From: Strigamia acuminata
Taxonomy: Eukaryota; Arthropoda; Chilopoda; Geophilomorpha; Linotaeniidae
Length of the DNA stretch: 64,000 nt
Reading direction: 5' to 3'
Assembly: GCA_949358305.1 (NCBI GenBank)
Contig: OX442314.1
Coordinates: 41,300,581 to 41,364,580 of the forward strand
The position numbers and the translations under genes are program-made. The stretch's first letter is position 1, and every line of letters starts with the position of its first letter. The notes beneath the pieces were generated by a model. It ran no database searches. It had not been told where the DNA came from and was given only the letters and a program-made list of their open reading frames with translations. Below, in pieces: positions 8,186-63,443 of this stretch.

Positions 8186-8186
8186 A

Positions 8187-12821: not shown

Positions 12822-12823
12822 AT

Positions 12824-15225: not shown

Positions 15226-15612
15226 ATCACCTACTGTTGTTTTCGAAATGTTGGTTTTTCTGCAAAAACAGAAATAATCAAATCATTTTTTGTGGTCAAA
15301 GTTTTTATTTTTTCAAAAAATCAAAGATGGCGACCCGGAAACAATAGGAAAACCATGTGGAAATTTAAGATTTTTCCAGAAATTCTAGAATTTCGAGAAA
15401 CTAAAGTTTTTGGAACTCTGGGAAATAACTTCTGGAAATTTCGAACCAATCACGTGATTTATGGGGACAATGGGGGGGAGTGACATCACTAATCCCTCCC
15501 CCATGAATGGCTAATTCACACAACGTTGCTGACCTCTAATTGGTTGCAAACTAATCTTTTGCGTCTATTTTTGTTTTTCTGCGGACCTGTCTTCTGGCAC
15601 AATTCGGCCAAA

Positions 15613-16920: not shown

Positions 16921-17094
16921 ACAAAGTTCTAGAAACAGCACAGAACATGGACTCTTGCCTGAATTTGGACATCATCATTTATGATTGAGTCCATGACAGA
17001 GCTCCTCCAAGATCTAGGTGAAATTGAATCAATGGCTAGCCCATTGAAACCGTTTTTCCTATGCCCAGAGAAGATTGATTTTTTTCTTTTCTCG
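16921..17094 (+). other. Unassigned joint after truncated gag
   Basis: Short non-coding stretch between the gag stop and the first recognisable pol remnant; no motif seen. Confidence 0.3.
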
Positions 17095-20370: not shown

Positions 20371-21001
20371 TGTGACCGGCTGCCCACACAGTCTGTCACT
20401 TCACTGCAACACACGGCGCTTCCCAGCTCTCGCGCACCTCGTGTGTTTCTCGTGCACGACCTGGTGCGGTCCCCCGCACCAGGTGGAGCTGTTGGTCATT
20501 GGCTCCGGCCAATTGGGAACCGGAAGTGCCCCTTCCGGAAGTGGTGGGCCCCGCAGTAGCCCGACAGTTGATTCTTGACCAGCATGGCGAACGGTCGTGT
20601 TCCGACCTTCTTCGCAATGCCGATCATAGTTGAGACCCGAAGGACCGACGCAGCAATGCTGTCGCCGGTCGGGACCTGAGCGTCCAACACGCCGTGTTCG
20701 CCGCACGTTTCTAAAGAACGTTGCGACAACGCGGCACAAACTGCGATAACCGATCTCACGTGTCATGGCGATCTACCGATTGCCGTGCCACGTGGTCGAA
20801 TCAGGAATAGCGGCAAAACCGCTATTACATTTGGGAAATACACCTTGAGACACCATATCATACCCCTAGACAACAATAAAGCAATAACCAAAACCTAAAC
20901 TTGTGTCTCTGTTGTATTTCGTGGATTGAATCATCGTGTGTGTTGCGTCCAGCGCCTCGCGGTCCTCCCCAGACCACGTGACGTCCGTCCGAACACTCAC
21001 A
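20371..21001 (+). repeat. Element A 3' LTR
   Basis: Partner of 12191-12821; aataaa at 20875-20880 would direct polyadenylation. The ggtt duplication follows at 21002-21005. Confidence 0.95.
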
Positions 21002-21005
21002 GGTT

Positions 21006-26531: not shown

Positions 26532-29500
26532 TCATTGTTGATAAGGCTTCCTAAATACTGCCGTAATATTTCGCACGAAATTTTCATCTGAATATTTCGG
26601 ATTTGGAACTCGTTCTCTTCGAGGACGCGTGCTAGTTCGTTTAACTAGTTTCTGGGGTTTACGTGGTTTGCGAGGAGGTTTCTTTAGAGGTTCTCCTCGT
26701 TCCACTGCTGCTTTCTTCTCCACAGCAATTAATCGCTGTCGATGTCTATGTTTAGACTTTTCTTGTACAGATTTTTTAGTCTGTACTTGAGGCGAGTCAG
26801 ATAATTTTATCGGAACTTCCGTAGGAGTCTCAGGAATTATTTCCTCTTGAACAGGTGGTGACGGAAGTTCATTACTCTCGTCCATCCATTTAGGATTTTC
26901 CTGATCTGTATTTGAAGCAGTTTTCTGCCCTATTTTCCAAGTTTCAATTGGATATAACGGCGTATAAGGATATAAAGCCTTAATGTTCACTGATTTTTCT
27001 ATTGAACCATCAGCAAGTTTGCGTAATTTATACGCGCTACCTGGAAGAATTTCGACAATCTCCCAAGGGCCGTCCCGCTTCTCAGCAAGACCTGCGGAGA
27101 TCTTTTTATCTGCGCACGAGAGAATGTGAGTTTGTTTCCAAACTAAATCTCCAACTTCGAATTCAACAATTGTGAACTTTTGTTCGTGAATCTTACGATG
27201 TCTTTCGTAATTCAATTGAATTCTTCTGTGCATCTCTTGATGCGCTCTACGTAGTATGTCAAGTAATTCTCGAACATATTTCTGAGGGTTATGCTTGTCA
27301 AATGGATTGGCATGCCTGAGAATTCTCGGATCGAAAGGTAAGGTAACAATTCTCCCCGTATTTAGCAACATCGGTGTCGAATTCGTTGCATCCGATTTAT
27401 TATTACAAATTACAAACGCAAATTCGTCTAAATATCGCGGCCATTGGGTGTGCACATCAGTGTAAATTGCCAATAAAATCTTAATGTCCCTGTTGGCTCG
27501 CTCTGTCGGGTTAGACTGAGCATGATAAGTGCTCGTATGAGCCGGTCGGATATGATAAGTTTCGCAATATTCATTATAAATATCTGAAACGAATTGTTTC
27601 CCATTATCACTAACAATCTTCTTTGGGTGACCCCAACGATTTGCAACAGATCTTAATTCTTGAACGCAATTAGCGCTCGTGGCTTTGGTTAAAGCTTTAA
27701 TCTCTACAAATTTAGTACAGTTGTCAATTATGACGAAGACGTACTGGTTTTGGGATCTCCCAGCTGGTTTTGGCCCCATTAAGTCCATATTAATATGTTC
27801 CCAAGGGTTGGTCATGTTATGAGGTACGTAAGGACCTGCACGCTTTTTCTGCTGATCCGGTTTGTATTGACTACAATGCGGGCAGCTTTTAACGTAATTT
27901 CTTACGCTTCGGCTCATTCCTGGCCAATAATATATCAATCGAGTTTTCTCGAGAGTTTTACTCATGCCTGCGTGGCCGCTCAAGGGGTGACCATGACAGG
28001 CGAAAAGCACTCGCTTTATGAGTGAACTGGGAACAACAGCTTTGAAGCCATTACCAGAGTCGTTGAGCTCTTCTTCAAACGAAGGATTAAAGAAAATGAT
28101 CATTTGATCGCCATCATCTTCCTTTTTGTCTAAACAATAGTTTCTAACTTTGTTTTTCCATTCTTTTATTTCCGATTTCGGAATTCCAACAATTCTGTCG
28201 AATAAAAGATACTCTCGAATGCGTTTACATTCAGTGTCGACTAACTGCGCATCAATTATTTCCCTTCTTGTAGGTGGGACTTCTTTTATCACATCTGTGA
28301 GAGCACTATACAAAGTTTCTTGTATCTCCTCCCCCTCCCTTTCTTCAGAATATTCTTTAGAATTTTCTGAAAAATGGACATGAACATTTGCTAAATATTC
28401 TGACCTTCCTGGAGCACGATTCAAAGAAATCGAAGGATTGCCGTCCCATTCTGGCCAATACTGATTTATTTCGATTGGCTCCACATGATCACGAAGAGGA
28501 ATGTCTTCCTCTCCTAATGGAGCCCTCGAGAGTGCGTCTGCAACTTGGTTACAAGCACCCTTCCGAAATACAATCTTGAAAGCGCCACATTGGATTCTTA
28601 AAGCCCATCGGCCAAATTTTCCAGATGGTTCAGGCGTTCGCATAAGCCATTTTAATGCTTCAGCATCTGACTCGAGTGTAAAAGTACCATATTCTAAATA
28701 CGGTTTAAAACGATCAATAGCCCACACGACTGCGAGACATTCGAGTTCTGGCGTTGTATAACGCTTCTCCGCTCCTCTCAATACTCTGCTTGCGTAAGCT
28801 ACAGGTCTGGCTGCCGTGCCAGTTTTCTTCTTGTCTTTATCCAAAAGATCAACATCTTGGCAGATGACAGCTCCTAAGCCTTCGTGGGATGCGTCAGTCA
28901 TGACTACGAAAGGTTTGGACATGTCTGGTTTGTGCAGACAATTGTCGTTACAAAGCAGCGCTTTAATTTTATTAAAAGCTTCAGTTTGAGCATCTCCCCA
29001 TTCAAATGGAGTTTTCTCATTCATCATACATGTGTATGGCGCAGCAATAGCTCCGTGATTAGGAACGAACTTCCTGAAGAAGTTTGTCATTCCATGAAAC
29101 CGTTGAATGTCTTTAGCACATGTCGGAGTCGGAAATTTCATAATTGCAGAAATTTTATCGGGATCTCCATATAAACCGTCAGGTTTAATCCAATGTCCTA
29201 AGAACTTGAGTTCTGTTCTTCCAAAACGAGATTTCGCTTTATTGATCGTCATATTAGCTTTATTAAGCTTTTCCAACACGTCTCGGACATGAATGAGATG
29301 TTCATCCCAAGTATTCGAATAGACAATTACGTCGTCTAAATAAACTAACGCGTAGTTTTGCAATGCTGAGCCTAAAACGCCTTCCATCAATCGTTGGAAA
29401 GTGCAAGGAGCATTACAAAGTCCAAATGGCACTCGCACAAATTGATAAGGACCATTCGGTGTGTAAAAGGCCGTCTTTGGACGATCTTCTTTACATATCT

Positions 29501-30317
29501 CGACTTGGTAATAACCTTTGACAAGGTCAATGGATGTGAAATACCTTCCTGGTCCAGTATTATGCAAGAGCAGATCTATACTAGGCATCTGAATCACATC
29601 TAATTCGGTGATTGCATTCAACCACCTGTAGTCGATACACATTCTGTACGTACCATCAGGTTTCGCAACAATTACAGGATGGCTAATGAATGGCCCAGTG
29701 GCCTTTTCAATTAGTCCATCTTGTTCTAGTTCAGCAACTAATTTGGACATAATGGCTCTCTTGGCCGGATTGTACATGCGGTACTGCATTCTGGGCAATG
29801 AATGCCCTTCTTTGAATTTAATACGATTTTGAGTAACATTCGTACATCCAACTTGGTCACGAAATACATTAGATACTGCATTGACCACTTCTCGAAGCGC
29901 TAGGCGCTGTTCAAGAGTGCAATCACTACCTTCGACTAACTTCTCATCCCATTCTAAAACGGGTGCATCGGATAATTCGGTTGAATCAGCGGCCGACGCA
30001 AGTTCTTCTAGATACTCGAAAGTAATTCGATTTAGAGGTGTCATTGCAAAGTTATCCTCTTCTGACACATAAGGGGCGGACCAAGTAGGTTTATCAGCAC
30101 AAGAGAACTCTTGGAGATGTGGATGTGTACTAATCTTTTGTCGACGCATAAAATTGTGTCCAAGTATTAATCCACAGACTCGTTTGGCTAAAACGATGAA
30201 ATTCATCGGCGTGCATTCATCAGCCCACTGTACGCACAAAGTTATTTGTCCGACTGGTTTGTGCGCTATACCTACAGCATTAACCAACATGTTTCTGGGT
30301 GCTTCTTGTAAAAATCA
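26532..30317 (-). CDS. pol: Element B Pol: protease end, RT, RNase H, integrase
   Basis: The open frame begins after a TGA near 30318. Residue numbers are from the internal Met at 30290. The protease C-terminus (I-L-G-H-N-F) is at 42-47. The RT has F-T-S-I-D-L-V-K-G-Y-Y, V-P-F-G-L-C-N-A-P and the catalytic Y-L-D-D at 317-320. RNase H begins at T-D-A-S (465). The integrase has an H/H/C/C zinc module (H768, H773, C803, C806) and core acidic residues D836, D895, E930, then a G-P-W module near 1075 and a Lys/Arg-rich tail with P-R-K-P repeats. All catalytic residues are present, so the domains from RT onward look undamaged. It follows pro in the -1 frame because of a one-base indel inside the protease. 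Confidence 0.92.
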
Positions 30318-30702: not shown

Positions 30703-32991
30703 CTAGTTTTTTGCACTAGAATCAGTCGAATCGTTAGATTCAGGTTTAGCCAATTGTTTGACTATCTCAGCTAATTGATTAGTGAGCGTCGACTGCAGTT
30801 TATTCTCAAAATTGTTAAATTTGGAATCAAGTTTCACATCTAGTGTCGCATCCAACACTTCTTGGGTTACCCAATTAGGTTTACGCTTAGCAGAGGGATC
30901 CAAAGTTGGATTATCTGGGGTATTTCGCTTCTGAATGTCTTCAGACTTAAAATTCGAACAAGGTTTTAAATCTGGACACTCTCGTCGGAAATGTCCGGGT
31001 TTCTTACAATTAAAGCAAACCATTTGTCCCCTCCTGTTGGGGTCTACTACACCATTTACTGCGTAAATTAGTTCACATTCTTCGGGCAACTCATCTGTAC
31101 AGAAATTAATCTGTTCATCCGATTCCAAAGTCAGGGACTTGGCGTTATTTTTAGGTTGTGAACGAGTGTCCGGTTTCCTAGGTGGGAAAACGACTGGATC
31201 GATTACTCTCACCCCATTGGCTGTACGGCTGTACAGTCCTTTCTTCTTCGTAATGGCATTATAAATGTCCAGGAAAGGGAGTTCGTCTAAACCTTGCGTG
31301 TGCAAGAGAAGATCGTTGGCGGGAGTAATGCTTCCCAAGAATATACTCGCAGCTCCCTGAGAGTTAAGGTTATCTTGTAATAACCAAAGTTGGTAAAACT
31401 TATGTGTATAATCATACAAGTTCTCTGAGTCGAGTTGTCTCAACTTTGTTAATTGGGTTGTTCGTTCCAAGCATGTGGCAACAAACCTTCCTCTAAACGC
31501 TTTTTCAAACGTATCCCAATTATGAAAGTCGTCTCGTCTCTCTTGAAACCAACTATATGCGAGGTCGGTTAAATAACCAGCCACGCCCTTTACTAGCATT
31601 TCATCGAGTGAAATATTGCGCAGAAACGCAACGTTTCGAATTATACTGAGGAAGCGCTCGCTTTCTTCAGTTTTACCCGAAAATACAGGTATGTCGGGGG
31701 GTTTCAAACTTATAGTTTGGGGTGTTGCAGGTGTGGAACTCTTTCCTGCTTGGGCTAGTTTATGCATATTTAATGCAATAGTAGCTAAGTCGTCCGCTGA
31801 CATCCCAAAACTACTAGTTGGTCGCAAATTATCATTCGTCAAACCATTATTAGAATGACTCGAATTATTGGGGTTGAAATTATTCGACCCTCCTTGATTT
31901 TGTCTACCTTGATGGCCAAAATTCGAACGATTATTCGGTCCACCCTGGTTGCCAAAATTCGAATGATTATTCGATCCACTGGGATTCTGCCTTCTTTGGT
32001 TACCAAAGTTGGAATGATTATTCGCTCCGCCTTGATTTCCAAAGTTCGAATGATTATTCGAATTTCCCTGATAACCTTGGTTCGAAAAATTATTCGATTG
32101 GTTCTGATTGCCAGGTTGTGAATAGTTATTCCACTGGCCTTGATTACCGGAACTTGAACAGTTATTCGGATTATTTAAGTTATTTAAGTTCGGCTGAACT
32201 GGATAACTTCCTTGCGATACAAGCAATTGGTTTGGAATATTATTATTTCCCGAAAAAGGATTCAAACGATTGTTTGGATCGACCATTCCTCTTAATTGAG
32301 AGCTTAAGTCGCTATTTAAACCATGAATGGGTTCAGCAGCAAGATTTGGACAACTGTTGGCTCCATTCGGAAAACCAGGATTTGAGTTTTTATTATTATT
32401 AAGACCCGTAAACCTTCTTTTATGAGAAGCAATAAGTTGATTATTCATTTGCCGATAGAACGCTTGTTCAAAACTGCCGGGTGTAGGATTCTGTTGATCC
32501 CAACGAGATTTCCGATTGGTTGTCGGAGGTGCTGTCGTTTTCTGTCGATACCGAGTGATCGGAGTCGACAGATTCAAACCAGGATCTGTCGGTCCTTGAT
32601 TACGTGGAGTTTGTGATCTAGAACTAGAATGCTCCGACAGGTCTCGATGTGTGTTAACAAAATCTAAAACTTCGGCCATTGTTCCAAATTGAATTGGATT
32701 TAGACAATAATCTCGACAAATAAAAAGTCCAGCTGGACCTAAATGTGATCCATCTTGTGGACGATTCATTTCCTCCACGGGGGTAGGATCAGTTACTTCC
32801 ACAACTGGATCGATAATGGCGACTGGGTCAGTCAGTTCAATTGAAACATTATTATCATCCACGTGGTTTTCCACAATATTCACTGTTTCCGTTTCATCTG
32901 GAACGGGTATAAATCCGGCTAAATTAATTCCACCGGTCAAACACGTTCTCTCCTTATCACGGGTATTCATCGAATGCTGGTTACTAGTCAT
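30703..32991 (-). CDS. gag: Element B Gag (762 aa) with Asn-rich repeats and zinc knuckle
   Basis: ATG at 32991. The N-terminal 200 residues are polar and low complexity. Residues about 270-395 hold a run of imperfect repeats built on N-N-H-S-N-F-G-N-Q-G-G, a prion-like Asn/Gln/Gly tract. A capsid-type domain follows (Y-S-W-F-Q-E-R-R, then F-R-G-R-F-V near 480-510) with L-R-Q-L-D. The nucleocapsid zinc knuckle C-F-N-C-K-K-P-G-H-F-R-R-E-C near 655 is the canonical C-x2-C-x4-H-x4-C. The protein would package RNA and form the particle. It is longer than most gypsy Gag proteins because of the Asn-rich part. Confidence 0.9.
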   Translation of the reverse strand: MTSNQHSMNTRDKERTCLTGGINLAGFIPVPDETETVNIVENHVDDNNVSIELTDPVAIIDPVVEVTDPTPVEEMNRPQDGSHLGPAGLFICRDYCLNPIQFGTMAEVLDFVNTHRDLSEHSSSRSQTPRNQGPTDPGLNLSTPITRYRQKTTAPPTTNRKSRWDQQNPTPGSFEQAFYRQMNNQLIASHKRRFTGLNNNKNSNPGFPNGANSCPNLAAEPIHGLNSDLSSQLRGMVDPNNRLNPFSGNNNIPNQLLVSQGSYPVQPNLNNLNNPNNCSSSGNQGQWNNYSQPGNQNQSNNFSNQGYQGNSNNHSNFGNQGGANNHSNFGNQRRQNPSGSNNHSNFGNQGGPNNRSNFGHQGRQNQGGSNNFNPNNSSHSNNGLTNDNLRPTSSFGMSADDLATIALNMHKLAQAGKSSTPATPQTISLKPPDIPVFSGKTEESERFLSIIRNVAFLRNISLDEMLVKGVAGYLTDLAYSWFQERRDDFHNWDTFEKAFRGRFVATCLERTTQLTKLRQLDSENLYDYTHKFYQLWLLQDNLNSQGAASIFLGSITPANDLLLHTQGLDELPFLDIYNAITKKKGLYSRTANGVRVIDPVVFPPRKPDTRSQPKNNAKSLTLESDEQINFCTDELPEECELIYAVNGVVDPNRRGQMVCFNCKKPGHFRRECPDLKPCSNFKSEDIQKRNTPDNPTLDPSAKRKPNWVTQEVLDATLDVKLDSKFNNFENKLQSTLTNQLAEIVKQLAKPESNDSTDSSAKN
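30706..30712 (-). promoter_or_regulatory. -1 ribosomal frameshift site A_AAA_AAC at gag end
   Basis: In the gag phase the last codons read GCA AAA AAC TAG, which is the classical A_AAA_AAC heptamer directly before the stop at 30703-30705. Slipping back one base continues as L-D-P-G-D-E into the protease frame. Seven bases downstream, GGGGG-ATGA can pair with TCAT ... CCCCC (about 30674-30698), the usual spacing for a stimulatory hairpin. Confidence 0.8.
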
Positions 32992-39178: not shown

Positions 39179-41310
39179 ATGGCCAACCGACACATATGTC
39201 GTTGTAAGGAAGACTTTCCAGGCGAGCCATACCCGAAGAATTACGCCGACCCGCCGCTCCACGCAGTCGGGCCGCCCAAATTCCCTTGCTGGCACCCCAA
39301 TGATCCACTCGAACAAAGTTACCCCAACTTTGAAATTTGTCCGGTCTGCTCTGGGTATGGATACGAACTTGTTGCTTCGAGTGCGGATAAGGTTTGCCGA
39401 GCGTGCGACGGGCGCGGTGACCTCCGTTGTGGATACTATCGCGTCTGGATGAGACAAATATATGGATGGTGTTTGTTTCGGAGAGTCCAAGATAAGGTGT
39501 ATCTAATTGGAGTGGAGTTCCCGCCATTCCGGCCGCCGAATGGGACGCCGGCCATGATACAACGATTTAGAGCTAACCATTTTAAATACTGGCACCGACT
39601 ACAACGAGAAGCGAGACAAGCAAGAATCGTGCCCCGAAATTGGATCTATCCAACTGCAGAACTAATGCGCCTTACATTTGCGCAAGTACCTGAATTGCTC
39701 GCCGATGAAATTGCAGGTCTAGACCCGATGGATCAAGAGCAACGAGAAGTCGATGAAGCGCAACCTACGTTACCGCAGTTTTTCCACAGTTTTCCTGGAA
39801 CCGACGCAAGTTTGCAGGAGCAGATTAGCATTGCGCTGGAATCGCTTGGGAATCTCAACACGATTGACGATAACAGCGAATCAGCACTGCCCTATTTCTA
39901 TCAGCGCAGACGGCCGTGTTCCATAAACCGACGTCCAGACCGAGAACAAAAACTGGCCATCAAGGTGCGTAGCACGTTAGCATCTTCATCGGCAGCGCTT
40001 CCGCATGATCCAACACGCAACACCACCACCGAACAATGTGCCAAAACCCTCAGCAGCAACCATCGCCAAGGCAGCCAAAAAAATAGCTACACTCACCATC
40101 AATGACAATGAGGACACTGAAAGTATGTTTTCTAATTCAACAGTGTCTAATATCGAATTTTTAACGCCACCAACAGAGACGGAGCCACGACCAGTGCCAC
40201 AACTACAATTGATTCCAGAACCATCAACCTCGGCTGATGAATTTGCGCAAGAAAATCTGCGCGACGAAAGTATAGACAATTCTCAACGTTCTCTTGTCGC
40301 TGCAGGATTTGCAGAATTCGATGCGCAATCAACGATGAGTGTGACACCATCGATTTTGGACACCACGACAGAAATTCGTGATAATGCACCAAACGCGAAA
40401 ATTAGTGACGTACGCCAGATCGAAAAGAAAATGATCGACATTCGAGATATCGACATTCCGGCCACTAAATCCACCTTTCCATGGCCTCGTGATCCACGCA
40501 CCGTCACCAACAAGCCACGCGGACCGCCGTTGAGCGCACGACTTTCACCAGCGCTAAAAGCTCAATTATCAGCGTCAACGCCAAACTTACCAATACCAGA
40601 CATTAATATTGACAATTCTAATCTTTCAACAGAACCATCACCAGCGCAAGACTATGCGCAAAGCTTTTCCATCGTGTCGATTGAGGATCCGTCCAGGACG
40701 TATACAGTGTTGCCAGCAGCACCAGTGATCGAGATCCCCTCGTGCAAAGAGGTAAGAGGATTTTACATCGAGAAATTGCCACTTTCCTCTACAAAGTCCA
40801 GGACACAAGGGACTATAATCAGATGATGGAGAAAAGAAGACGTCAAGAAAGAGACGCACAGCATGAATTGGAGAAGACTCGAATCGCAGAGGCCCATCGT
40901 CAAGAAGCTGAACGTGAGGCACGAACGCGAGCGCGAGAAGAAGAAGAAAAGAAACGCTCTGACGAATTGCGCCTACAGGAATTGCGCGATTTGATGACTG
41001 ATTCAGGTTTCTATCCAATGTCTGCACCGTCCATTCCACCGGCCCAGGGACCACAAGTCTGGGATGACACGCCACCACGCATCACCCTGGAGCTGCTCCC
41101 CAGCTTGTTACCGCCGGAAAACGTGCACGTAAATCGACGGCGGAGAATGGATCTCCAAGACGCTGGCGCCGAAATCTTATGACTCTCACCCGTACGACCT
41201 GTTTGGTCCGGACCTCAGTAAGCAAGTCGATGACTACGAGAAGATGGCCAAGATCTCGGCGAAAACCTTTCCACAAGGAGGAGGACCGATTTCAAAACAG
41301 CAGTAACTTT
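39179..41310 (+). pseudogene. Divergent ORF3-like gene with frameshifts
   Basis: ATG 39179. The N-terminal 300 residues include C54-P-V-C57-S-G-Y-G and C73-R-A-C76-D-G-R-G, a DnaJ-type pair with the same 15-residue spacing as A and F. Next comes a conserved-looking aromatic/basic region (Y-Y-R-V-W-M-R-Q and F-K-Y-W-H-R). The frame shifts near 40000 into a Ser/Thr/Pro-rich acidic part, shifts back near 40750 into a strongly charged coiled coil (R-R-R-Q-E-R-D-A-Q ... R-E-E-E-E-K-K-R), and once more near 41140 to a tail ending at TAA about 41307. Total about 700 codons. No gag or pol lies beside it, so it is a stranded or host-acquired ORF3. Three small indels, with long open stretches between, suggest recent decay. 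Confidence 0.6.
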
Positions 41311-52643: not shown

Positions 52644-53266
52644 TGTGACCAGCTGCCCCTGCGCACGGGTCGCTGCACTGCAACGGCAATGCACTTGGCG
52701 CAGCTCCAGCGCCTCTCGTATCTCGCGCAGCCTGTTGCGGTCCCCCGCAACCAGGTGGAGCTGCGGGCCTTTGGTCAAGCAGGATCGGGCCCCGGAAGTC
52801 GCCCTTCCGGAAGTGGTTGGTCCCCGTAGGGACAAGAGAGTTGTTGATCAACCAGCAAGGCGAACGGTCGTGTTGCGACCGCCTCCGAAACTGGCTATTG
52901 AGATAACCCAAACTATCGGCGTGGCGATGATATCGCCCGCCGGGACCTGAGCGTCCAGTTGCGCCACGTCCGCCGGACGTTAACCGTAACTTCGGCGGCG
53001 TGGCCCAAAACCGATTACCGACCTCGTGTGTCATGGCGGCCGATGGCCGCCGTGCCACGCGGTCTGATTAGGGACGGTTCGAAGGAACCGCCGCCTTGGG
53101 AAATACACTATGGGACACTACAATCATACCCCTAGACATCCAATAAAGCCATAACTAAAACTATATTGTGTCTCCGTGTATTTCGTGGTTTGTTTTATCG
53201 TGTGTGTTGCGTCCAGCGCCTCCGTGGCTCTCCCCCGACCACGTGGCGTCCGTCCGAACACTCACA
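52644..53266 (+). repeat. Element F 5' LTR
   Basis: 623 bp; aataaa at 53142-53147. It is related to the A LTR at its ends and in the part around gttgcgtccagcgcct, but diverged elsewhere. The long open frame on its minus strand is repeated in the other LTR. Confidence 0.95.
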
Positions 53267-53268
53267 AT

Positions 53269-53286
53269 TGTGGGCCCGTCCAGGAT
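53269..53286 (+). promoter_or_regulatory. Element F primer binding site (tRNA-Pro-like)
   Basis: tgtgggcccgtccaggat, two bases after the LTR. Three mismatches to the classical tRNA-Pro site, one more than in A. Confidence 0.65.
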
Positions 53287-54132
53287 TTTGAATTCTCTTG
53301 CGAATACTATTCTAATTTACTGATTGTGCGAAGCACAATATTAAATGAATTTTTTCTTTCAACTAGAGGGGGAAATTTCCTTGGTCATGATTGTGACAGG
53401 GGGTCAGCAGGCGAAACGGCCGCTAATCGCTGACCATTGGACCCTGATCAGACAAAAATTGGTGGCTTTGCATGTCCAGCTTGCCTGGGTACTGGCAAGC
53501 CGGGACTTACACTAGCCACACTTTCCAACGGTCTTCTATTCCTTTCTAGCTTAGCCTAAAAAACTGAGTGGTTGGGAGGGGAATATAATTCCAAACCTTC
53601 TTTATTATTTTTATTTCTTGGTGCGCAGCCCAAGTAAAAGTAATGGGACAGTCTGCAGCGTATTCAAACTCGATTCGTGGAGGAGGCGCGCTGGTGGCCA
53701 CCAGCAAACCAAATCCCACGGGGGAGAAGCGGTCATATTCCAGGTGCCACGCTGCAATCACTGGTTCCATTATGGGCCGGGCGAGGAGGCGATGTTGAAC
53801 TGAGCTTTGAGTGACACCAAATTTCTTGTAGGACGTTTAGTCGCTTGGATGCAGGTTGCTAGCTTAGTGGTCGCTGGCGCGGGAACAGTCACGTGCGGTG
53901 AGTTGGCGTGTAGTTGGACCCGAGTAGCAGCGAAGTGTCCGCACACATGGGAAGACTGCCTTGATTTTTGTTGCGACTCATAATTTATGGGTTGCGTTGT
54001 GGCTGCTCAAGGCGCTCATCCGGGTTCACATCGGTCATAATCCTACCCTGTCCCGTGTACTGGTTGGTAGGCAACTGCAAGTTAACGTATTTAACCCAAG
54101 AGTTGCTGAAATTGGGACACGGACAGCAGGGA

Positions 54133-54270
54133 GAGCTGCCGGAGGTACGGGGATACCGATGGTGAAGTGCTCAAATGGTACAGAGAGTTCGTTAGGGCGT
54201 AGGAACGATATCTGTGCGTTCAGGTAGCTACCAACTTTGAAAAAAGATTGGGAATCTAGCCTGTAACTTT
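54133..54270 (+). promoter_or_regulatory. Highly conserved leader block in F
   Basis: Partner of 13718-13855; about eight transitions in 133 bases. Non-coding in both elements. Confidence 0.6.
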
Positions 54271-54999
54271 TGTTTCTGAATTTTATTCACTCTTGCTTGA
54301 TTTCTGGGCTACTGCAGTTTGTTAAAGGACTGTGCTCGAACCACAGTCTGGAGCAATCTCTGTAATTTGGAAATTAGTTGTTTTTACATCTTTTTCATTT
54401 TTTACTTTTTCTCTAAACTTCCCTATCTATGATTTTCATGGTTTTCTTGGGACTCCACACCTGACAGCGGTAATAATCACCTCAAATGCCGGGTTGTATA
54501 CAGCGTCAAATGGAGGGCGATATGGCTTCACAATGGCGGCTGAAGGGTGGGACCCAAGGCGACTAGGGACAGAAGATGCATTTCCTTTTTACTTTAAGTG
54601 CAACTGACTGTTCCACAAAAAACACCATTTCATTGGGATGAACAGACATCTCAGTGTAGGCACGTTTCTGTCGAAAGGCAGCCTCGTGCAGACTGGAATG
54701 AGTCTCCGAAAGGGGTGAGCGGGCGCGTTTGTTGGTCTCTTGGGGCAGAAGAAGAGATTGCAACAATATCCCCGTAGTGTAAATATCTGCAAAAACCTTC
54801 TGCTAAAAATTGGAACTTTTTGGGTGTCTTTTAGATTAAAAAACACCCAGTATTTTGTAATTTTTTATTTTTATTTTCTTATCTTTCTTCCTCTGTTTCT
54901 TCTTGCGAGGCATCAAGAATCGGTTTGTCTGCGCGCTAGCGCGGTTTGATTTTGTTATTTGTTGCTAACAATGATAAAATTAACTGGTTTGAAAATTTC

Positions 55000-55110: not shown

Positions 55111-55490
55111 TCACTATTGTTTTTTCAAAAAGTGTTGTTTTTTCTGCAGAAATGTAGGAATTGGAACATTAAAACGGTCGAAATTTTGTTTTTATTTTAA
55201 AAATCAAACATGGCGACTGGAAAGACAATAGAAAAACATGTGGAAATCTCGGAATTTTCGAGAATGATTGGAATTTCAAATTTCGACATTTTCTTGGAAC
55301 TCTGGGAAATTGATTCTATAAATTATTTTAATTTTCTACCAATGGGAAACCAGGGGGGGGAAGTGACATCACTAATCCCTCTCCCAAGAATGGCTACTTG
55401 AGCCTAATCTCCTGTCTCCTCATTGGTCGTGACTTAATTCCACTTGTTCACCTTGCAAGCTGCGGTCCTGCTTTTGGTCACATTGTGTCA

Positions 55491-57092
55491 ATGCCAGCGA
55501 CCAGAACTGGTAAGACCACGTGGGACTCTCCTGCACCTAATTCTTTCACACCCGCAACGGATTCAGATTTGAACGACTCGGATAACAATTCGATTGCTTC
55601 TTCAAACGACAATATGTCAGTCCCTAAAGTTAAATTGTTGGATCAAGCGATGCTTGAAACGACTTGCAACGTCTTTAATCTAGTTATCGATGATATGACA
55701 ACCTACGAAGTGTGGGAAGACACGCTTCTGAAAGTAGCCGATCACTTGGTGGAACTCCAAGACAAATCGGATAGCACTATGCGTCAATTAACGCAAACGC
55801 GCACGGAATTCGGTGATATTAGCGACCGGTTAACTCATGCTTTGCAGGAGTTAGACTCTGCGAAATTATCGAATGAAAGCTTGTTGAAGATGATAGCTAG
55901 TCAAAAAGCTATCGTTGACAGCGTGGTGGCGGCTGGACAATCGAATTTGAGAGCACAATCTGCAATCTCAAACACGATTTCTCCCACCGTGACAACACCA
56001 AACTCTGGATCCAGCACAGGCTCAACGCCTACGACTGGAAATCCTCTTTTTCTGGCTTGGGGAGAAAAGTTTCTTCACAAAACTGACCAGGCTATGCCTG
56101 CTCCCAGGCCAATGGATGAAGTAGAGCTAAGTAAACGAGTCAAATCCATTGGAATTGAAGCGTTTGCAGGGGACAAAACGAAAGCTAAGTCTTTCCTTAT
56201 TGATTTAAAACGTTCTCTACGCTTTGCTTTGCCCTATCTGAACCAAGTGCTTGCTGAGCATTTGTTTAAGTTTTTCCGAGGAGATGCGGCCACATGGTTC
56301 TCTTCTCATGCCAAAACGAATTGGGAGGAATTCGAACATGAATTTATCACCCATTTTCGTCCGAGCGATGCGCTGCTTTTAGCAGAAATTGCTAAAACGC
56401 AGCAACTGTCTCATGAGTCTGCCACCCAAGTGGTGATAAGACTCGAGAAGTTATACGCTCAATTGACTATTCCTGTGCACGAGAGCCAGCAAATTCAAAA
56501 AGTGCTGGCAATTCTGCGCCCAGCGGCCAAGAACATGGTCGCAAATGCCATTAATTTGGAGAACACTTGGGCGTCGCTCAGGAAAGCTTGCATTGCTACG
56601 GAGGCCGCGATCATAAATCAGGAAACTGTGACAAATGCAGCAATCATTGAGGCGGCAAAAACAGAAACTGTTACGCCAATTCAAAAATCCAACCAGCAAA
56701 TGGTAACAATACCAAATGCTGCGGGTGGAGATAAACCGAAATTTGTTCCGTTTGGATTGAGAAATCCAAACAATAGAACACTGTTCCCTGCGCCTAAAAA
56801 TGCTGCGATAGCAGCAACAAAGGCCGCAGAAGGCAACGAGAAGGCGCTAGTCCCGAGCAATAGGCTCAAAGATTATGCGACCAAACCAAGAGTTGGCGGT
56901 TGCTGGGGCTGCGGTGGCGCACACTTTGAAAGGGATTGCCCCCTTAAAGTGGAAGCCGCTAAAGCAGCAATGGAAACAATCGCCGCTGCCCAACACAGCA
57001 TGATGCAGGCTATGCTTGCAGCCAATGAATTTGGTGGCTGGCCTGACATGGCGGGAAACGAGGAGTCGCAGTCGACAGAAACCCCCGAGTAA
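55491..57092 (+). CDS. gag: Element F Gag (533 aa)
   Basis: Start ATG 55491: the open frame begins further upstream but has no earlier ATG, and similarity to A begins here (M-P-A-T-R-T-G-K). Acidic, Ser-rich N-terminus to residue 45, then a coiled-coil-like part (about 60-150). The capsid-type domain (about 200-390) has H-L-F-K-F-F-R-G-D-A-A-T-W-F, F-R-P-S-D-A-L-L-L-A-E and I-L-R-P-A-A-K. The zinc knuckle C-W-G-C-G-G-A-H-F-E-R-D-C lies near 475-487 and has C-x2-C-x3-H-x4-C spacing, one residue shorter than usual. The last codons overlap the pol frame. Confidence 0.92.
   Translation: MPATRTGKTTWDSPAPNSFTPATDSDLNDSDNNSIASSNDNMSVPKVKLLDQAMLETTCNVFNLVIDDMTTYEVWEDTLLKVADHLVELQDKSDSTMRQLTQTRTEFGDISDRLTHALQELDSAKLSNESLLKMIASQKAIVDSVVAAGQSNLRAQSAISNTISPTVTTPNSGSSTGSTPTTGNPLFLAWGEKFLHKTDQAMPAPRPMDEVELSKRVKSIGIEAFAGDKTKAKSFLIDLKRSLRFALPYLNQVLAEHLFKFFRGDAATWFSSHAKTNWEEFEHEFITHFRPSDALLLAEIAKTQQLSHESATQVVIRLEKLYAQLTIPVHESQQIQKVLAILRPAAKNMVANAINLENTWASLRKACIATEAAIINQETVTNAAIIEAAKTETVTPIQKSNQQMVTIPNAAGGDKPKFVPFGLRNPNNRTLFPAPKNAAIAATKAAEGNEKALVPSNRLKDYATKPRVGGCWGCGGAHFERDCPLKVEAAKAAMETIAAAQHSMMQAMLAANEFGGWPDMAGNEESQSTETPE
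57053..57059 (+). promoter_or_regulatory. -1 ribosomal frameshift site G_GGA_AAC in gag/pol overlap
   Basis: Gag codons gcg gga aac place GGGAAAC in the correct phase. The -1 frame is open from 57047 straight into pol. A perfect 8-bp stem, cgcagtcg (57067-57074) with cgactgcg (57097-57104), extended by gag/ctc, starts seven bases downstream and encloses the gag stop (57090-57092). GGGAAAC is an established retroviral slippery sequence. Confidence 0.85.
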
Positions 57093-57127
57093 CTGACGAC
57101 TGCGCTCTCACTATTGTGTTGATTCCA

Positions 57128-60100
57128 ATGGAAGAAGACATGGAGGATGCGCTATTTGATGACATTTCATCCACAGAGCCAGATCCTCGCGTGGTTTTTT
57201 CCACAGAACCTGAAATCGATCATGTTAACGTTGCTTTAAAGACAGGAAAGAGTATTACTCCCCTGCCTTACTTCAAAGCAACACTAAACGGCTTAAAAGT
57301 CACCGCTCTGATGGATACTGGGGCAACCCATAGGTACATCAGCGGAGGAATGCTTAAAAAGCTAAACCTCTTGCACTTTATGACTCCATTTTTAGAAAAT
57401 CGAGTTGTATACACTGGCGATAGACCAACACGTCCAATCGGAACAATCACATTGCCACTCAAGTGGCGGGGTGGTGAAATCCCTGTGACATTTACTGTTC
57501 TTCCATCAGCTTCCAAATTTATATTATTAGGTTGCTCTTGGATTATCGAAAATAGGATTGTTCTCAATCTAACAGATCGAGAATATTTCTTTCTTGATTT
57601 TCCACATGACACATTTCCCTTCGACGACCCACCATCGCCTGAAGAACTTGGAAATGCAATAATGGATCGATGGGATGCTTTGGTTGCAGAATCAAAGTCA
57701 CCTTCTGTCTCCACGGCTGATTTGAGCCAGAGACTGTTAGCAAAAAGCAATTTGTCACCAAGGCAGAGATCTCAAATCTTAACTCTTGTAGAAAAATACA
57801 GACATGTGTTTAGTGACAAAGCTGGCTGCCACCCCACGTTGGAACATCCAATTCCGACTGGAGATGCACCTTCATTTCGATGCAAAGACCGACCAATGAA
57901 TCCCAAGAAAGCTGAGATTTATCGCGAATTGGTTGCTGAATTGCTGAGAGATGGTTGGGCCGAACCTTGCGAGGGGAGTTATAAAAATCCCCCCGTGATT
58001 GTTGCAAAGAAAGACGGAGGGTACCGCCTCTGTATTGACTTTCGCTGGCTAAATAAGATCACAATTGAGGACGTCTACCAGATGCCCTCAATTTCTATGA
58101 TTTTGGCCTGTTTAGGTGGAAAAAAGTTCTTTTCTACTTTGGATTTAACTAAAGGTTATTACCAAATAAAACTTAAATCAAGTGACAAGAAGAAAACTGC
58201 TTTTTCTACTTCTGATGGAACATACCAATTTACTCGTATGCCCTTCGGACTGTGCAATGCACCCAGTGCATTTCAAAGAATGATGGATCAAGTTCTTGGA
58301 ACTGCACAACACAAGTGGGCACTCGCTTACCTCGATGATATTATCATTTTTAGCGACTCATTTGAAGAACACCTTCAGCATTTAGATGACATATTGTCAA
58401 AATTAGATAAAAACAAATTGACAGCGAGTCCGTCAAAGTCATTTATTTGCCCTGAAGAATTAAACTTTCTTGGTTTCACGATGTCAAATGGGGGTTATAG
58501 CCCAAACAACGACAAAGTGGAAGCAATTTTAAATTATCCGACCCCTTCCAGTATAAAACAGCTTCAGCGTTTTATTGGGATGGTGGGTTTCTATGCTGCT
58601 CTAATTCCAAAACTGAGTATTACTCAAAAACCATTTTTTGCCCTTTTAAAGAAAGATACAAAATGGGAATGGTCTGAAGAGTGCAATGTTGCTTTCGAAT
58701 ATCTGAAAAACCAGCTTGCAAAAGGAATTGTGCTACCTCTGCCTGATTTCGCTCGCAACTTTACCATCCATACAGATGCTAGTGGCGGCGGGCTCGGTGC
58801 AGTCCTCATGCAACTGGATGACCATGGTGCTTTAAGACCAGTTGCGTACGCCAGCAGAACTCTGCAAGGCGCGGAAAACAACTACAGCACCACTGATTTG
58901 GAATGTTTAGCTGTGGTTTGGGCTGTTGATAAGTTCAAACCATACATTGAATATTCTGAGTACCAAGTTGAGACTGACCATCATGCTCTGAGATTTCTCA
59001 TGACAATGGAAAACCCAGCTGGAAGACTGGCTAGGTGGGCAATGAAATTGCAGAATGAAAATTTCACCATCAAGTACCGAAAAGGCACCGACAATCAAGT
59101 CGCGGATGCCTTATCCAGAGTCTCTCTTGATAATGGCAATCCGTTAGAAGGAAAAGCAACTCTAACAGAGATTATAGAGCCTGTTGCTCTAGCTTATCTC
59201 ACAAATGAGACCGATTACCCGATGTCTTTCGAGAACATTATATTACAGCAGCGTGCAGATAAACATCTTTCAAAACTAATCGAATGGTTGGAATTGGATG
59301 ATGGACAACCTCGACCAGAACTTCCTAAGTTCTTGGAAGAAAGGCAGTACGACTGCACACTCACTAGAAAAGGAATGCTTATTATTTATGCACCCTTTAA
59401 AACTGATTTCTTTGTGGAGGAAGAGGATTTGGGAATTGGATTTAAAATCTTTATTCCACCATCTCTGCAACTCGCAGCACTTCAACTAATTCACGACCAT
59501 CCGATGGCTGGTCACGGAGGAGTTGAAGTAACTCTAGAGCGATTGAAAAGAGTTTATTTCTGGCCTGGCATGCAAAAAGAAGTAAAACTTCATGTAGCAA
59601 GCTGCAATCGCTGCCAACGCTGCAAACCGATTCAGAGAAAACCAAAGGGATTGATGGTCCCAACTTCTCCAAAAATTGGTCGTTTTGAGAAGATAGGAAT
59701 CGATCTAATAGGTCCATTACCTAGAACCTCGAACAGAAATCGCTTCATTCTAGTTGTGGTGGATTATGCCACCGGCTGGATGGAAGCTACACCGCTGAGA
59801 TCCGCCAAAATGACTGCAATTGCACCAATTTTAAAACGATTTTTCAGCTGTCATGGGTGCCCCCGTTTCATGTTGAGCGATAATGGCCCCCAATTCATTT
59901 CTGACGTGTTTCAGACTCTCTGTGACGATGCAGGGGTTGTGCCAATTAAAGCAACGCCTTACCATCCCCAGACTAACCTGACTGAGCGCGTAAACAGGAA
60001 TATCAAGATTATGCTTCGAATTTTTACATTTGAGCACGATCACTGGGACAGATGCATCGACCAGATAAATTTTGCTTTGCATTCTGCCCCAAATGTGTCT

Positions 60101-60826
60101 ACCGGTTTTACACCAGCAATGCTGACGTATGGCAGGGAATTACGACCATTTTGGGATAATCGAGATGTGTCTTATGACACCCCATTCGACCCAAATAGGC
60201 CCTACGACGCTGTCAGAATGCTAGTCGCTAGACACCGTACTCTGATTGCTGCAGCTTTTAAAAATAAGAGTCTGGCCCAAGCAAAACAGAAAACTTACTA
60301 CGATCAACACCGCAGCGACGATAAGTTCGAAATTGGAGATTTGGTTCTGCTAAAGACCCACCCATTGTCCAATGCTGCTAATCGATATGCTGCGTCCCTT
60401 GAGGATCGCTTTGAAGGACCTTATGTAATAACTAAAGTCTTTAACAACAATGCGTATGCCCTTGCGAAACCAATAACTTTGCAAGCGAGGGGTACACACA
60501 ACATTGTAAAACTCAGGAGATTCATCCCCTCAGAAGAAAAGGCTGAATGGCCCATTTTAGATAAGGAAGATGAAGAAGTTCTTGAAAACCAACCTGTGGA
60601 CACTGGAACAGCAACGATATTGCCAACTCCAGTGCAACCAACGGAATCTGGTATCGCAACTAAGTTGCCAACACCAGTAAAACCTTTTGGGAAACCAAAA
60701 AGAATAAAACCCTTGCTGTTGCCACAAGTGGATTCACAAAAACCCACGACGGCTCGACCAAAACCAAATTCGGACTCAAATAGACCTTCGAGAAATCACG
60801 TTTTACCGATCCGATATCGGGATTGA
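57128..60826 (+). CDS. pol: Element F Pol: protease, RT, RNase H, integrase
   Basis: Most likely made as a Gag-Pol fusion through the frameshift at 57053; ATG 57128 is the first in-frame Met if translated alone (1232 aa). Numbering from that ATG: protease A-L-M-D-T-G-A-T near 60-67 and I-L-L-G near 132-135; RT with F-F-S-T-L-D-L-T-K-G-Y-Y (334-345), M-P-F-G-L-C-N-A-P and Y-L-D-D (401-404); RNase H starting T-D-A-S (549-552) with D-L-E-C near 590. The integrase zinc module has H791/H796/C826/C829 and core D859, D918, E953. A G-P-Y module follows near 1100, then a Pro/Lys-rich tail. No chromodomain was recognised. All catalytic residues are present and the frame is unbroken. Confidence 0.95.
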   Translation: MEEDMEDALFDDISSTEPDPRVVFSTEPEIDHVNVALKTGKSITPLPYFKATLNGLKVTALMDTGATHRYISGGMLKKLNLLHFMTPFLENRVVYTGDRPTRPIGTITLPLKWRGGEIPVTFTVLPSASKFILLGCSWIIENRIVLNLTDREYFFLDFPHDTFPFDDPPSPEELGNAIMDRWDALVAESKSPSVSTADLSQRLLAKSNLSPRQRSQILTLVEKYRHVFSDKAGCHPTLEHPIPTGDAPSFRCKDRPMNPKKAEIYRELVAELLRDGWAEPCEGSYKNPPVIVAKKDGGYRLCIDFRWLNKITIEDVYQMPSISMILACLGGKKFFSTLDLTKGYYQIKLKSSDKKKTAFSTSDGTYQFTRMPFGLCNAPSAFQRMMDQVLGTAQHKWALAYLDDIIIFSDSFEEHLQHLDDILSKLDKNKLTASPSKSFICPEELNFLGFTMSNGGYSPNNDKVEAILNYPTPSSIKQLQRFIGMVGFYAALIPKLSITQKPFFALLKKDTKWEWSEECNVAFEYLKNQLAKGIVLPLPDFARNFTIHTDASGGGLGAVLMQLDDHGALRPVAYASRTLQGAENNYSTTDLECLAVVWAVDKFKPYIEYSEYQVETDHHALRFLMTMENPAGRLARWAMKLQNENFTIKYRKGTDNQVADALSRVSLDNGNPLEGKATLTEIIEPVALAYLTNETDYPMSFENIILQQRADKHLSKLIEWLELDDGQPRPELPKFLEERQYDCTLTRKGMLIIYAPFKTDFFVEEEDLGIGFKIFIPPSLQLAALQLIHDHPMAGHGGVEVTLERLKRVYFWPGMQKEVKLHVASCNRCQRCKPIQRKPKGLMVPTSPKIGRFEKIGIDLIGPLPRTSNRNRFILVVVDYATGWMEATPLRSAKMTAIAPILKRFFSCHGCPRFMLSDNGPQFISDVFQTLCDDAGVVPIKATPYHPQTNLTERVNRNIKIMLRIFTFEHDHWDRCIDQINFALHSAPNVSTGFTPAMLTYGRELRPFWDNRDVSYDTPFDPNRPYDAVRMLVARHRTLIAAAFKNKSLAQAKQKTYYDQHRSDDKFEIGDLVLLKTHPLSNAANRYAASLEDRFEGPYVITKVFNNNAYALAKPITLQARGTHNIVKLRRFIPSEEKAEWPILDKEDEEVLENQPVDTGTATILPTPVQPTESGIATKLPTPVKPFGKPKRIKPLLLPQVDSQKPTTARPKPNSDSNRPSRNHVLPIRYRD

Positions 60827-61047
60827 CCGCTAGGTGACACTTCAAATCGGGAGACCCATTTGGACCAATCACAGACTGTTTACAAAACATCTGCGGTCCA
60901 TACGCCAATTAAACGTTCGCGAAACGTCTTCCGGTTCTATACTTAGCCACCACCATTCGTTGTCCAAATCACTTATTCGCTGCGATCGCCACTGACCAGT
61001 CGTGTGGAACTTCTCTGGAAAATCGAAACGAAAAGATTGGAAAAACG
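60827..61047 (+). other. Element F pol-ORF3 spacer
   Basis: Matches 18509-18756 of A in part (ttggaccaatcacaga, aaaac-tctgc, tacgccaatt). It contains ttccggttctatacttag (60930-60947), a weak acceptor-like site 100 bases before the ORF3 ATG. Confidence 0.5.
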
Positions 61048-62322
61048 ATGGAAAATCACCGAAACAACGAATGGGTTCAGTGCCCAATCTGTAACGGCTT
61101 CGGCTACATCACGCTGTGGAATCTATCGCGGATCCCGTGCATGAACTGCGGCGGAGACGAAATCGTTCTGGCGGACCAACCACTCGAGGAATGGTTTGTC
61201 ATGTTCATGACGCTGCCCGGTCAGCCGATTCCGCTGCACCACCGACATATTAACTGGATGCGCGTCCGATCGCGCGCAGAACGCGAGAAGGAAATCGCAG
61301 ACAGGGAACAAGCGCGTGTGGCGAATGCCACACCGACGGAACCCCCAAAGAAAAGACAGAAAACGGCAACGAAGAGCGTACGCTCTCAACCGCCGCCGAC
61401 TGCCTCTACTAATATCTCTACGAAGAAACCCGCAGCGACGACGTCGCAGAAGGTTCTTCGTCCGCCACATAAGCCATTTGTGCTTAAAAAGAAGGCTGCC
61501 GAGGAGACAAAAGCGACCGTACAAAGTACCGTCGCCCAAGCTCCTCACCAACCACCGACCGCCCGTCCAAACATTTCGGAGAAATTGCTGGAAATGAGAC
61601 GGCTCGTGGCGATCGAAAATCCCACGTTGAGTGAACGAAGCGTGAATACCGAAGCAAAAATTCGGTACAGAGCGAAAAAACACGCGGACCATAGGGACCG
61701 AATGGCAAAAAGAGACGCCGAGAAAGCGGCTCATCAGCAATTGACTGCGCCATCGGCCACAATCACATCGAATGCGCCACGCGCACTCGTTAAGAAAATC
61801 CCAGCTCAAACGGAAAAAACTCCCGATGAGCTACGAACAGCTTGGGCGGGACAGTACGGTCCTCAACCAATCCAAGGTATTGTGAACCTGATCCCGACCA
61901 AAGCCACGGCGGCCGCAATCGCTTTTCCAGCGGCCTGCCAACTACCGCAAACGGCACAAACGATGTTTGGTGCCAATACAGCAGCGACGCCGGCTGTCAT
62001 TATGCCGCCGATGGTTGGAGAACGCCCGACGAACGTCGTGTTCCAGGGATTCGCGGATCCTCCACCAGTTTGCGGCAACAATGTAGTCACCGCCGAAGCA
62101 ACGATCGAGACCGCGATGCAAATTGACGGCGCATCGAACGAGGAGTCGCACACGCCGCCACCACCACCGCCAGTCGTTCCCGAGCCCAAAGCTACCGCCG
62201 TGAAAAAGAAGTCGAATAAGAAGTCACGCAAGAAGCTAGCAGAAGAATTCGTCGACGACAAAACTGAAGAAGAGCCAAAAACCGACGATACGCCACCCAC
62301 ACCGGGGAAATCGCTGCAGTGA
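61048..62322 (+). CDS. Element F ORF3, DnaJ-type zinc motif protein (424 aa)
   Basis: ATG 61048. Cys 12, 15, 31 and 34 form C-P-I-C-N-G-F-G, 11 residues, then C-M-N-C-G-G. The next 55 residues are well kept with A (W-F-V-M-F-M, R-H-I-N-W-M-R-V-R-S-R-A-E-R-E). Then a Lys/Pro-rich linker with nuclear-signal-like K-K-R-Q-K, an N-I-S-E-K-L-L-E-M-R-R-L-V helix, a basic helix (Y-R-A-K-K-H-A-D-H-R-D-R), the E-K-T-P-D-E-L-R block, an Ala-rich part and a C-terminus ending T-P-P-T-P-G-K-S-L-Q. No membrane segment or signal peptide, so not an envelope protein. The GC-rich composition differs from pol. I know of no named gypsy gene of this kind. Confidence 0.85.
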   Translation: MENHRNNEWVQCPICNGFGYITLWNLSRIPCMNCGGDEIVLADQPLEEWFVMFMTLPGQPIPLHHRHINWMRVRSRAEREKEIADREQARVANATPTEPPKKRQKTATKSVRSQPPPTASTNISTKKPAATTSQKVLRPPHKPFVLKKKAAEETKATVQSTVAQAPHQPPTARPNISEKLLEMRRLVAIENPTLSERSVNTEAKIRYRAKKHADHRDRMAKRDAEKAAHQQLTAPSATITSNAPRALVKKIPAQTEKTPDELRTAWAGQYGPQPIQGIVNLIPTKATAAAIAFPAACQLPQTAQTMFGANTAATPAVIMPPMVGERPTNVVFQGFADPPPVCGNNVVTAEATIETAMQIDGASNEESHTPPPPPPVVPEPKATAVKKKSNKKSRKKLAEEFVDDKTEEEPKTDDTPPTPGKSLQ

Positions 62323-62820: not shown

Positions 62821-63443
62821 TGTGACCAGCTGCCCCTGCGCACGGGTCGCTGCACTGCAACGGCAATGCACTTGGCGCAGCTCCAGCGCCTCTCGTATCT
62901 CGCGCAGCCTGTTGCGGTCCCCCGCAACCAGGTGGAGCTGCGGGCCTTTGGTCAAGCAGGATCGGGCCCCGGAAGTCGCCCTTCCGGAAGTGGTTGGTCC
63001 CCGTAGGGACAAGAGAGTTGTTGATCAACCAGCAAGGCGAACGGTCGTGTTGCGACCGCCTCCGAAACTGGCTATTGAGATAACCCAAACTATCGGCGTG
63101 GCGATGATATCGCCCGCCGGGACCTGAGCGTCCAGTTGCGCCACGTCCGCCGGACGTTAACCGTAACTTCGGCGGCGTGGCCCAAAACCGATTACCGACC
63201 TCGTGTGTCATGGCGGCCGATGGCCGCCGTGCCACGCGGTCTGATTAGGGACGGTTCGAAGGAACCGCCGCCTTGGGAAATACACTATGGGACACTACAA
63301 TCATACCCCTAGACATCCAATAAAGCCATAACTAAAACTATATTGTGTCTCCGTGTATTTCGTGGTTTGTTTTATCGTGTGTGTTGCGTCCAGCGCCTCC
63401 GTGGCTCTCCCCCGACCACGTGGCGTCCGTCCGAACACTCACA
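62821..63443 (+). repeat. Element F 3' LTR
   Basis: Partner of 52644-53266; aataaa at 63319-63324. It ends ctcaca, followed by the cact duplication. Confidence 0.95.

Follow-up and report, generated by a model that had tools for sequence, protein, structure and literature searches.

A third gene with a DnaJ-like half zinc motif in gypsy elements of the chilopod Strigamia acuminata

A 64,000-nucleotide stretch of the Strigamia acuminata genome (GenBank assembly GCA_949358305.1, contig OX442314.1, positions 41,300,581 to 41,364,580 of the forward strand; hereafter the window, with positions counted from its first nucleotide) holds three gypsy elements, referred to as F, A and B. As judged by sequence comparison, the third open reading frame (ORF3) located between pol and the 3' long terminal repeat (LTR) of F and A is a true accessory gene of the A/F lineage that is under purifying selection, and the paired-Cys module near its N-terminus corresponds, by the same measure, to one half of the DnaJ zinc domain or to a module of the anti-TRAP kind. 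It is possible, if short of an even chance, that the ORF3 product is a nuclear RNA-handling accessory protein acting in the manner of CERV or Rev.

The ORF3 gene of elements F and A

The features of the two elements are listed here.

52644-63443, +: element F; LTRs 0/623 different, TG...CA ends, 4-bp CACT duplication, gag, pol and ORF3
52644..53266, +: F 5' LTR, 100% identical to 62821-63443; 4-bp target site duplication (TSD) CACT outside
53267..54890, +: F leader, non-coding; 78% nucleotide identity with A
55398..57092, +: F gag; first in-frame ATG at 55491; CCHC-like CWGCGGAHFERDC close to its end
57116..60826, +: F pol with protease, reverse transcriptase (RT), RNase H and integrase (Pfam)
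60858..60874, +: F candidate splice acceptor upstream of ORF3, from alignment and scan, picked post hoc; its A counterpart ends at 18554
61048..62322, +: F ORF3, open frame of 424 aa; 34% amino acid identity to A ORF3, pN/pS 0.65
61081..61155, +: F motif CPICNGFGY...CMNCGG, DnaJ-type half zinc motif (six-frame scan, profile search)
61345..61371, +: F PPKKRQKTA, basic cluster resembling a nuclear localization signal (NLS), a putative reading; aligned with PPRKKAKMS in A
61567..61743, +: F ORF3 residues 174-232, conserved helical hairpin; AlphaFold2 pLDDT (per-residue model confidence) about 90 for residues 181-220
62821..63443, +: F 3' LTR (LTR comparison)
12191-21001, +: element A, within one LTR of B; GGTT duplication
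12191..12821, +: A 5' LTR, 1/631 different from 20371-21001; 4-bp TSD GGTT outside
12822-14481, +: A leader, non-coding
15526..16920, +: A gag, capsid part retained, C-terminus replaced by an RT-like fragment; 47% to F gag residues 17-419
16821..18499, +: A pol remnants, nine stretches spread over three frames, five stops; most of the RT to integrase core absent
18757..19983, +: A ORF3, 408 aa, without a stop
18790..18864, +: A motif CTVCMGGGL...CMNCNG (six-frame scan)
20371..21001, +: A 3' LTR (LTR comparison)

The hallmarks of Ty3/gypsy elements (Metaviridae), namely gag, the order protease, RT, RNase H and integrase, LTRs with TG...CA ends and a short TSD, are all present in F and B, and A is assigned to this group by its gag, LTRs and pol remnants only. 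Because the pol identity between F and B is 34%, these two are regarded as different lineages.

The A and F ORF3 proteins are clearly homologous, with a local alignment score of 470 against 83 for the best of 200 shuffles. Over 401 aligned codons the two share 34% identity, and the proportions of nonsynonymous (pN, 0.50) and synonymous (pS, 0.76) differences give a pN/pS of 0.65 (bootstrap 0.58-0.75); this ratio replaces dN/dS because dS is saturated (infinite in 221 of 300 bootstraps), and all selection results come from the single pair of A and F. For gag, pN/pS in the same pair is 0.44 (0.39-0.51, 403 codons) and hence lower, so ORF3 evolves faster than Gag. The Cys and Gly residues of the motif are identical at 7/7 positions, against 34% identity overall, while the two other Cys of F ORF3 are not kept in A. 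Also retained in both proteins are an NLS-like TPT-x-PP-basic stretch, a helical region (174-217) and a C-terminal TPGKSL. The initial annotation, which had proposed a candidate for an undescribed component, named a dN/dS near 1, random loss of Cys and a match to a named retroelement gene as signs against it; the ratio found is not near 1 (0.65 as pN/pS), the four Cys are kept in A and F, and the libraries searched yielded no named retroelement gene. No relatives of F pol, F ORF3 or the pol and ORF3 alignments were found in a viral contig collection, nor of the two alignments in a genome contig collection; both collections are viral and prokaryotic and have little bearing on eukaryotes. A gypsy gene with DnaJ-type Cys was absent from the titles and abstract openings of the literature searched, which leaves most subscription journals outside, and Rfam gave nothing at gathering scores.

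Element A combines near-identical LTRs and a decayed pol with a capsid-coding gag and an ORF3 that are still open, a combination that is new here. When F pol is used as the query, the nine stretches (E <1) recovered from A are in part short or overlapping, and one of them overlaps a leader-like repeat. No stop occurs in A gag (464 codons), the C-terminus of which is lost together with the knuckle region, or in ORF3 (408 codons). Since the LTRs differ at 1 of 631 positions, pol should have decayed for the most part before the insertion took place, with the caveat that LTR gene conversion is possible. Rough arithmetic from the stop rate of the remnants predicts about five stops for ORF3 and none is seen, so that A ORF3 was probably kept without pol while the latter decayed. 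Within the remnants, A 17201-17661 duplicates the end of the leader (76% identity to F 54924-55390), and it also resembles A's own 15088-15382.

The paired-Cys motif at four sites

Element B and the gene near 39 kb comprise the following features.

~11957-22344 (interrupted by A) and 34115-35687, - strand element: B LTR copies, AACA flanking both sides
26532..30290, -: B pol (Pfam), 34% to F pol
30703..32991, -: B gag with zinc knuckle (Pfam)
24541..25431, -: B ORF3 piece 1, in a frame open from 25476; the motif is close to the end of the piece
23062..23733, -: B ORF3 piece 2, with a further CPIC
23729..24601, no strand: insert of ~0.87 kb in B ORF3
24646..24726, -: B motif CPFCVGCGW...CPNCRG (six-frame scan)
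39179..41310, +: 39-kb gene, open frames; gypsy membership not supported
39338-39412, +: motif of the 39-kb gene (six-frame scan)

A strict scan of all six frames (CxxCxGxG, 8-25 residues, CxxC) detects C-x2-C-x-G-x-G...C-x2-C at exactly four sites of the window and in 0/60 windows simulated with an order-2 Markov model. The four sites fall within the four copies for which the initial annotation had claimed the motif, and its measurements were reproduced, with gaps of 15 residues between the Cys pairs in A, F and the 39-kb gene and 17 in B, and with Cys 12, 15, 31 and 34 in both A and F. All four sites run on as CxxCxG. A looser scan for Cys only (CxxC, 10 to 25 residues, CxxC) gives six matches, all at these sites, and at least one match in 27/60 simulated windows, hence the glycines matter for the significance of the motif.

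A profile built from the four regions has the Cys-rich domain of E. coli DnaJ (1exk, E 0.0025) as its top match among PDB sequences, and further matches are anti-TRAP (E 0.48), an AF-9 homologue (0.76) and yeast Mas5 (0.84). In the suggested comparison with the Pfam family DnaJ_CXXCXGXG, each of the four segments matches DnaJ or anti-TRAP weakly and always below cut-off. Against PF00684 (cut-off 32.7 bits), the whole proteins of A and the 39-kb gene score 13.4 and 15.3 (F and B not listed), and the motif segments of F, A and the 39-kb gene 16.0, 16.1 and 18.4 (B not listed); against Anti-TRAP PF15777 (cut-off 32 bits), whole F and B score 13.8 and 16.4, and the segments of F, B and the 39-kb gene 18.9, 20.9 and 11.9 (A not listed). 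The B segment additionally matches the TFIIB zinc ribbon (0.0013), likewise below cut-off. In the six-frame scan each site has one motif pair only, fewer than the four repeats of DnaJ_CXXCXGXG, and no J domain was matched in the Pfam scan of the window proteins. Like half a DnaJ Cys-rich domain, the module would bind one zinc ion; in structure prediction the N-terminal zinc region has a pLDDT of 46 with four sequences, and values stay below 50 across residues 1-79 of the full-length model.

The third gene of B had been described as one copy, yet it is not a single open frame. It is interrupted by an insert whose ends are inverted repeats (1 mismatch in 86) and which is flanked on both sides by the direct repeat GGTTCCACC; the 9-bp length of this repeat recalls Mutator-like elements. 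The B LTR pieces that were compared differ at 2/237 and 5/1347 positions. Similarity between the genes was assessed by local alignment against 500 shuffles, also with Cys masked or local composition kept. The score of F and B piece 1 is reached by 38/500 shuffles (79/500 with Cys masked), and A and B piece 1 reach a score of 79 that is matched by 0/500 shuffles, 0/500 with Cys masked and 2/500 with local composition kept; A and B piece 2 are borderline (5/500 and 4/500). The A-B alignments leave out the motif, that of piece 1 is A/P/T-rich, and F is without this similarity (240/500). The distance from pol to ORF3 is 1.1 kb in B and 0.22 kb in F. B carries the same kind of motif gene at the same place as A and F, which may reflect common descent or shared function only.

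The 39-kb locus had also been counted as a gypsy gene, a view that finds no backing, as neither gag nor pol was found around 38.5-41.5 kb by tblastn of 13 window proteins and no LTR pair accounting for the gene was found. Its reading frame shifts at least two times, with a plausible 71-nt intron (GTAAGA...CAG, read by eye) at one of the shifts. The score of F against its first ORF (58) is reached by 2/500 shuffles and, with Cys masked, by 33/500; the same counts hold for B piece 1, and the score of A is reached by 43/500 shuffles. Outside the motif and with Cys masked, the likeness of the B and 39-kb genes to F or to each other is near chance. PHROGs gave weak matches only, the best being phrog_9961 (unknown function) for the 39-kb ORF (E 0.0013). 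On this evidence the gene may belong to the host or to a different element, and it is possible that it lies in an old degraded gypsy element. A repeat of ~2.1 kb with 85-88% identity occurs at 10136-11956 plus 35688-36023, the copy into which B inserted, and at 41844-43973; as LTRs of the 39-kb gene these repeats are not supported, since TG...CA ends, a primer binding site and a polypurine tract are lacking as far as readable.

Of the claim that the four copies represent one gene, the homology of A and F therefore stands, and B and the 39-kb gene are not supported as the same gene. The chances are about equal for and against an independent origin of the four sites, whereby A and F would share one gene, B would have an unrelated or convergent gene of its own and the 39-kb gene would come from the host or another element, a view that would fit any functional reading; the scant likeness of F to B and to the 39-kb gene outside the motif, the lack of gag and pol near 39 kb and the plausible intron there speak for it, whereas the absence of the motif from all 60 simulated windows, the A-B piece 1 score above all 500 full shuffles and the same position of the B gene speak against it.

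Candidate role of the ORF3 product

The ORF3 product is predicted to be nuclear, because it has no membrane span, carries NLS-like clusters, shares three S/T-P sites between A and F and is possibly expressed by splicing, although each of these signs is weak when taken singly. The highest 19-residue hydropathy mean among seven ORF3 pieces is 1.32 (A 1.31, F 0.94) and no stretch comes near membrane values, which agrees with the initial annotation as to the lack of a membrane span. A second basic cluster is situated close to the C-terminus. In the AlphaFold2 model of F ORF3, 53 of 424 residues have a pLDDT of at least 70, and the sole confident part is the hairpin at ~178-232. HMG-box chains make up 12/49 Foldseek rows obtained with the model; these weak matches suggest an HMG box, a three-helix L-shaped fold, at residues 174-232, for which sequence searches gave no backing.

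With regard to expression, ORF3 may be made from a spliced RNA that joins the leader to the candidate acceptor upstream of its ATG. The 173 nt (F) and 202 nt (A) from this acceptor to the ORF3 ATG are free of ATGs, where ~2.8 would be expected in each. A donor-like CATCCTGGGGGTAAGTGTG is kept between ORF3 and the 3' LTR in both elements (62590-62625 in F; 20205-20235 in A). The A/F leader is a candidate packaging signal or response element. Its identity over 16 windows of 100 columns (last partial window dropped) has a standard deviation of 8.9 versus 4.3 by chance; the block right after the primer binding site folds better than shuffles (F z -2.8, 0/200; A z -1.6, 13/200), an excess not seen for a second block (z -0.9 and -0.2).

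Taken together, the A/F ORF3 protein looks more like a nuclear helper of element RNA than an envelope protein, as far as can be read from its sequence. A decayed or diverged env is highly improbable; this idea is nearly refuted and was set aside on hydropathy, as the membrane span of a retroviral or errantiviral Env is missing, and the NLS-like clusters, the N-terminal position of the Cys motif and the absence of an envelope family from the Pfam results likewise argue against it. If ORF3 works like CERV of Cer1 or, more loosely, like Rev, the nuclear protein would gather on the unspliced RNA of the element and permit its export or packaging. In this view the zinc module would offer a surface for contacts with protein or RNA, and the conserved helical hairpin would mediate oligomer formation or bind nucleic acid. 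Such nuclear RNA handling agrees somewhat better with the NLS-like cluster conserved in A and F, and with the example set by CERV, than do the roles suggested initially (assembly factor, RNA chaperone or host-factor adaptor).

Several points weigh against a role in RNA export or packaging. To our knowledge, the CxxCxGxG module of proteins with a known role (DnaJ, anti-TRAP) serves protein contacts and not export. The Cys of CERV (193, 195, 200, 269) are spaced unlike Cys 12, 15, 31 and 34 of A and F, and NLS, nuclear export signal and S/T-P patterns are frequent by chance. The acceptor was chosen post hoc, there are AGs richer in pyrimidines than this one (F 60946, A 18667), and the two best-scoring donors of F (53898, 55510) are without a counterpart among the donors listed for A. 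Finally, A could be a mosaic with an ORF3 recently re-acquired from an intact relative by recombination, because its leader and LTR (78% and 74% nucleotide identity) are closer to F than its gag or ORF3 (58% and 47%); if so, the argument that ORF3 was kept without pol is weakened.

Two other roles can be considered. It is unlikely that ORF3 is a helper of Gag assembly or folding, that is a J-domain-less DnaJ-like zinc chaperone which maintains the competence of Gag or Pol or brings in chaperones of the host. The DnaJ Cys-rich domain is the best profile match, A retains the capsid part of gag along with ORF3, and J-domain-less DnaJ-type zinc proteins with chaperone activity have been described (ZnJ2/BSD2; PMC5818400), but ORF3 has only half a DnaJ zinc domain as compared to the four CxxCxGxG motifs given there for ZnJ2 (PMC5818400), no J domain was matched in Pfam, and the NLS-like clusters favor a nuclear role. 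Somewhat less likely still is an adaptor that combines a zinc module with a basic helical hairpin and acts on the host nucleus, for example by anti-silencing or integration-site choice, instead of in RNA export, for which the NLS-like clusters, the hairpin and the HMG-box rows can be cited; the precedent of CERV is one of RNA export. The proposed RNA-handling role also has a broader form, to which we assign a low probability, namely that gypsy lineages (A/F and B at least) took up, independently or jointly, a one-zinc DnaJ-half module for an element-encoded nuclear RNA-export or packaging factor (Rev/CERV-like) that is kept even in pol-less derivatives.

Elsewhere in the window, an ORF starting MNLGTQAYASQQHK (9101-9685) is followed by one stop and a 123-aa open stretch (9686-10057), downstream of a gypsy integrase-like remnant (8173-8442). 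Neither piece has anything above the Pfam cut-off, and the first matches nothing in PDB sequences and PHROGs at E 0.33 only; the ORF may be an endogenous viral gene or come from a retroelement.

Comparison with known systems

Third genes are common in gypsy elements, and many are without clear homology or known function. A gene with a recognizable zinc module that is intact in a pol-less element provides a concrete, testable handle, through the four Cys, the leader as a possible RNA target and the predicted localization.

In bdelloid rotifers the ORF3s after pol vary, comprising GDSL, DEDDy, CC, TM and env types, none of which is named with a CxxCxGxG motif in the available portion of the paper (PMC5408684). 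In the non-autonomous bdelloid TelKA2n the C-terminus of gag and the bulk of pol are missing while an env-like ORF is present, much as A lacks these parts and retains ORF3 (PMC5408684). Extra genes in env-less gypsy elements are also exemplified by sORF1 and sORF2 of the Drosophila MDG1 group, of which sORF1 is subnuclear; in contrast to ORF3 these are short and upstream of gag, sORF2 is a membrane protein, and no zinc motif is mentioned in the accessible sections (PMC11952523).

With respect to the module, the DnaJ Cys-rich domain (PF00684; PDB 1exk), the top profile match, shares CxxCxGxG...CxxCxG with ORF3, whereas in ORF3 the half-motifs number two rather than four, the gap is longer (15-17), no J domain was matched and scores are below cut-off; type I DnaJ proteins are described with four CxxCxGxG repeats (PMC5818400). 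Anti-TRAP (PF15777; PDB 3lcz), described as zinc-binding and homologous to DnaJ, has, like ORF3, one pair of CxxCxGxG-type motifs (PMC2896485). It is, however, a bacterial regulator of TRAP with 53 residues, and the second motif of ORF3 is CxxCxG, mostly without the last G, with scores below cut-off.

CERV of Cer1, a Ty3/gypsy element of C. elegans, is a nuclear protein made from spliced mRNA, of which the Cys cluster, R194 and S214 are required for export of the genomic RNA (PMC10309623). As described there, it resembles A/F ORF3 in its place between pol and the 3' LTR, the lack of env features, a Cys cluster, a candidate NLS and an S/T-P site, and it is unlike ORF3 in that its first exons share the gag frame and in its H, M and G domains (PMC10309623). 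The A/F ORF3 is not classed as CERV, since the Cys spacing differs; the proposed likeness to CERV is one of function. CERV shows that the third gene of a gypsy element can be an RNA-export factor, and its authors asked whether other 3' ORFs behave alike (PMC10309623).
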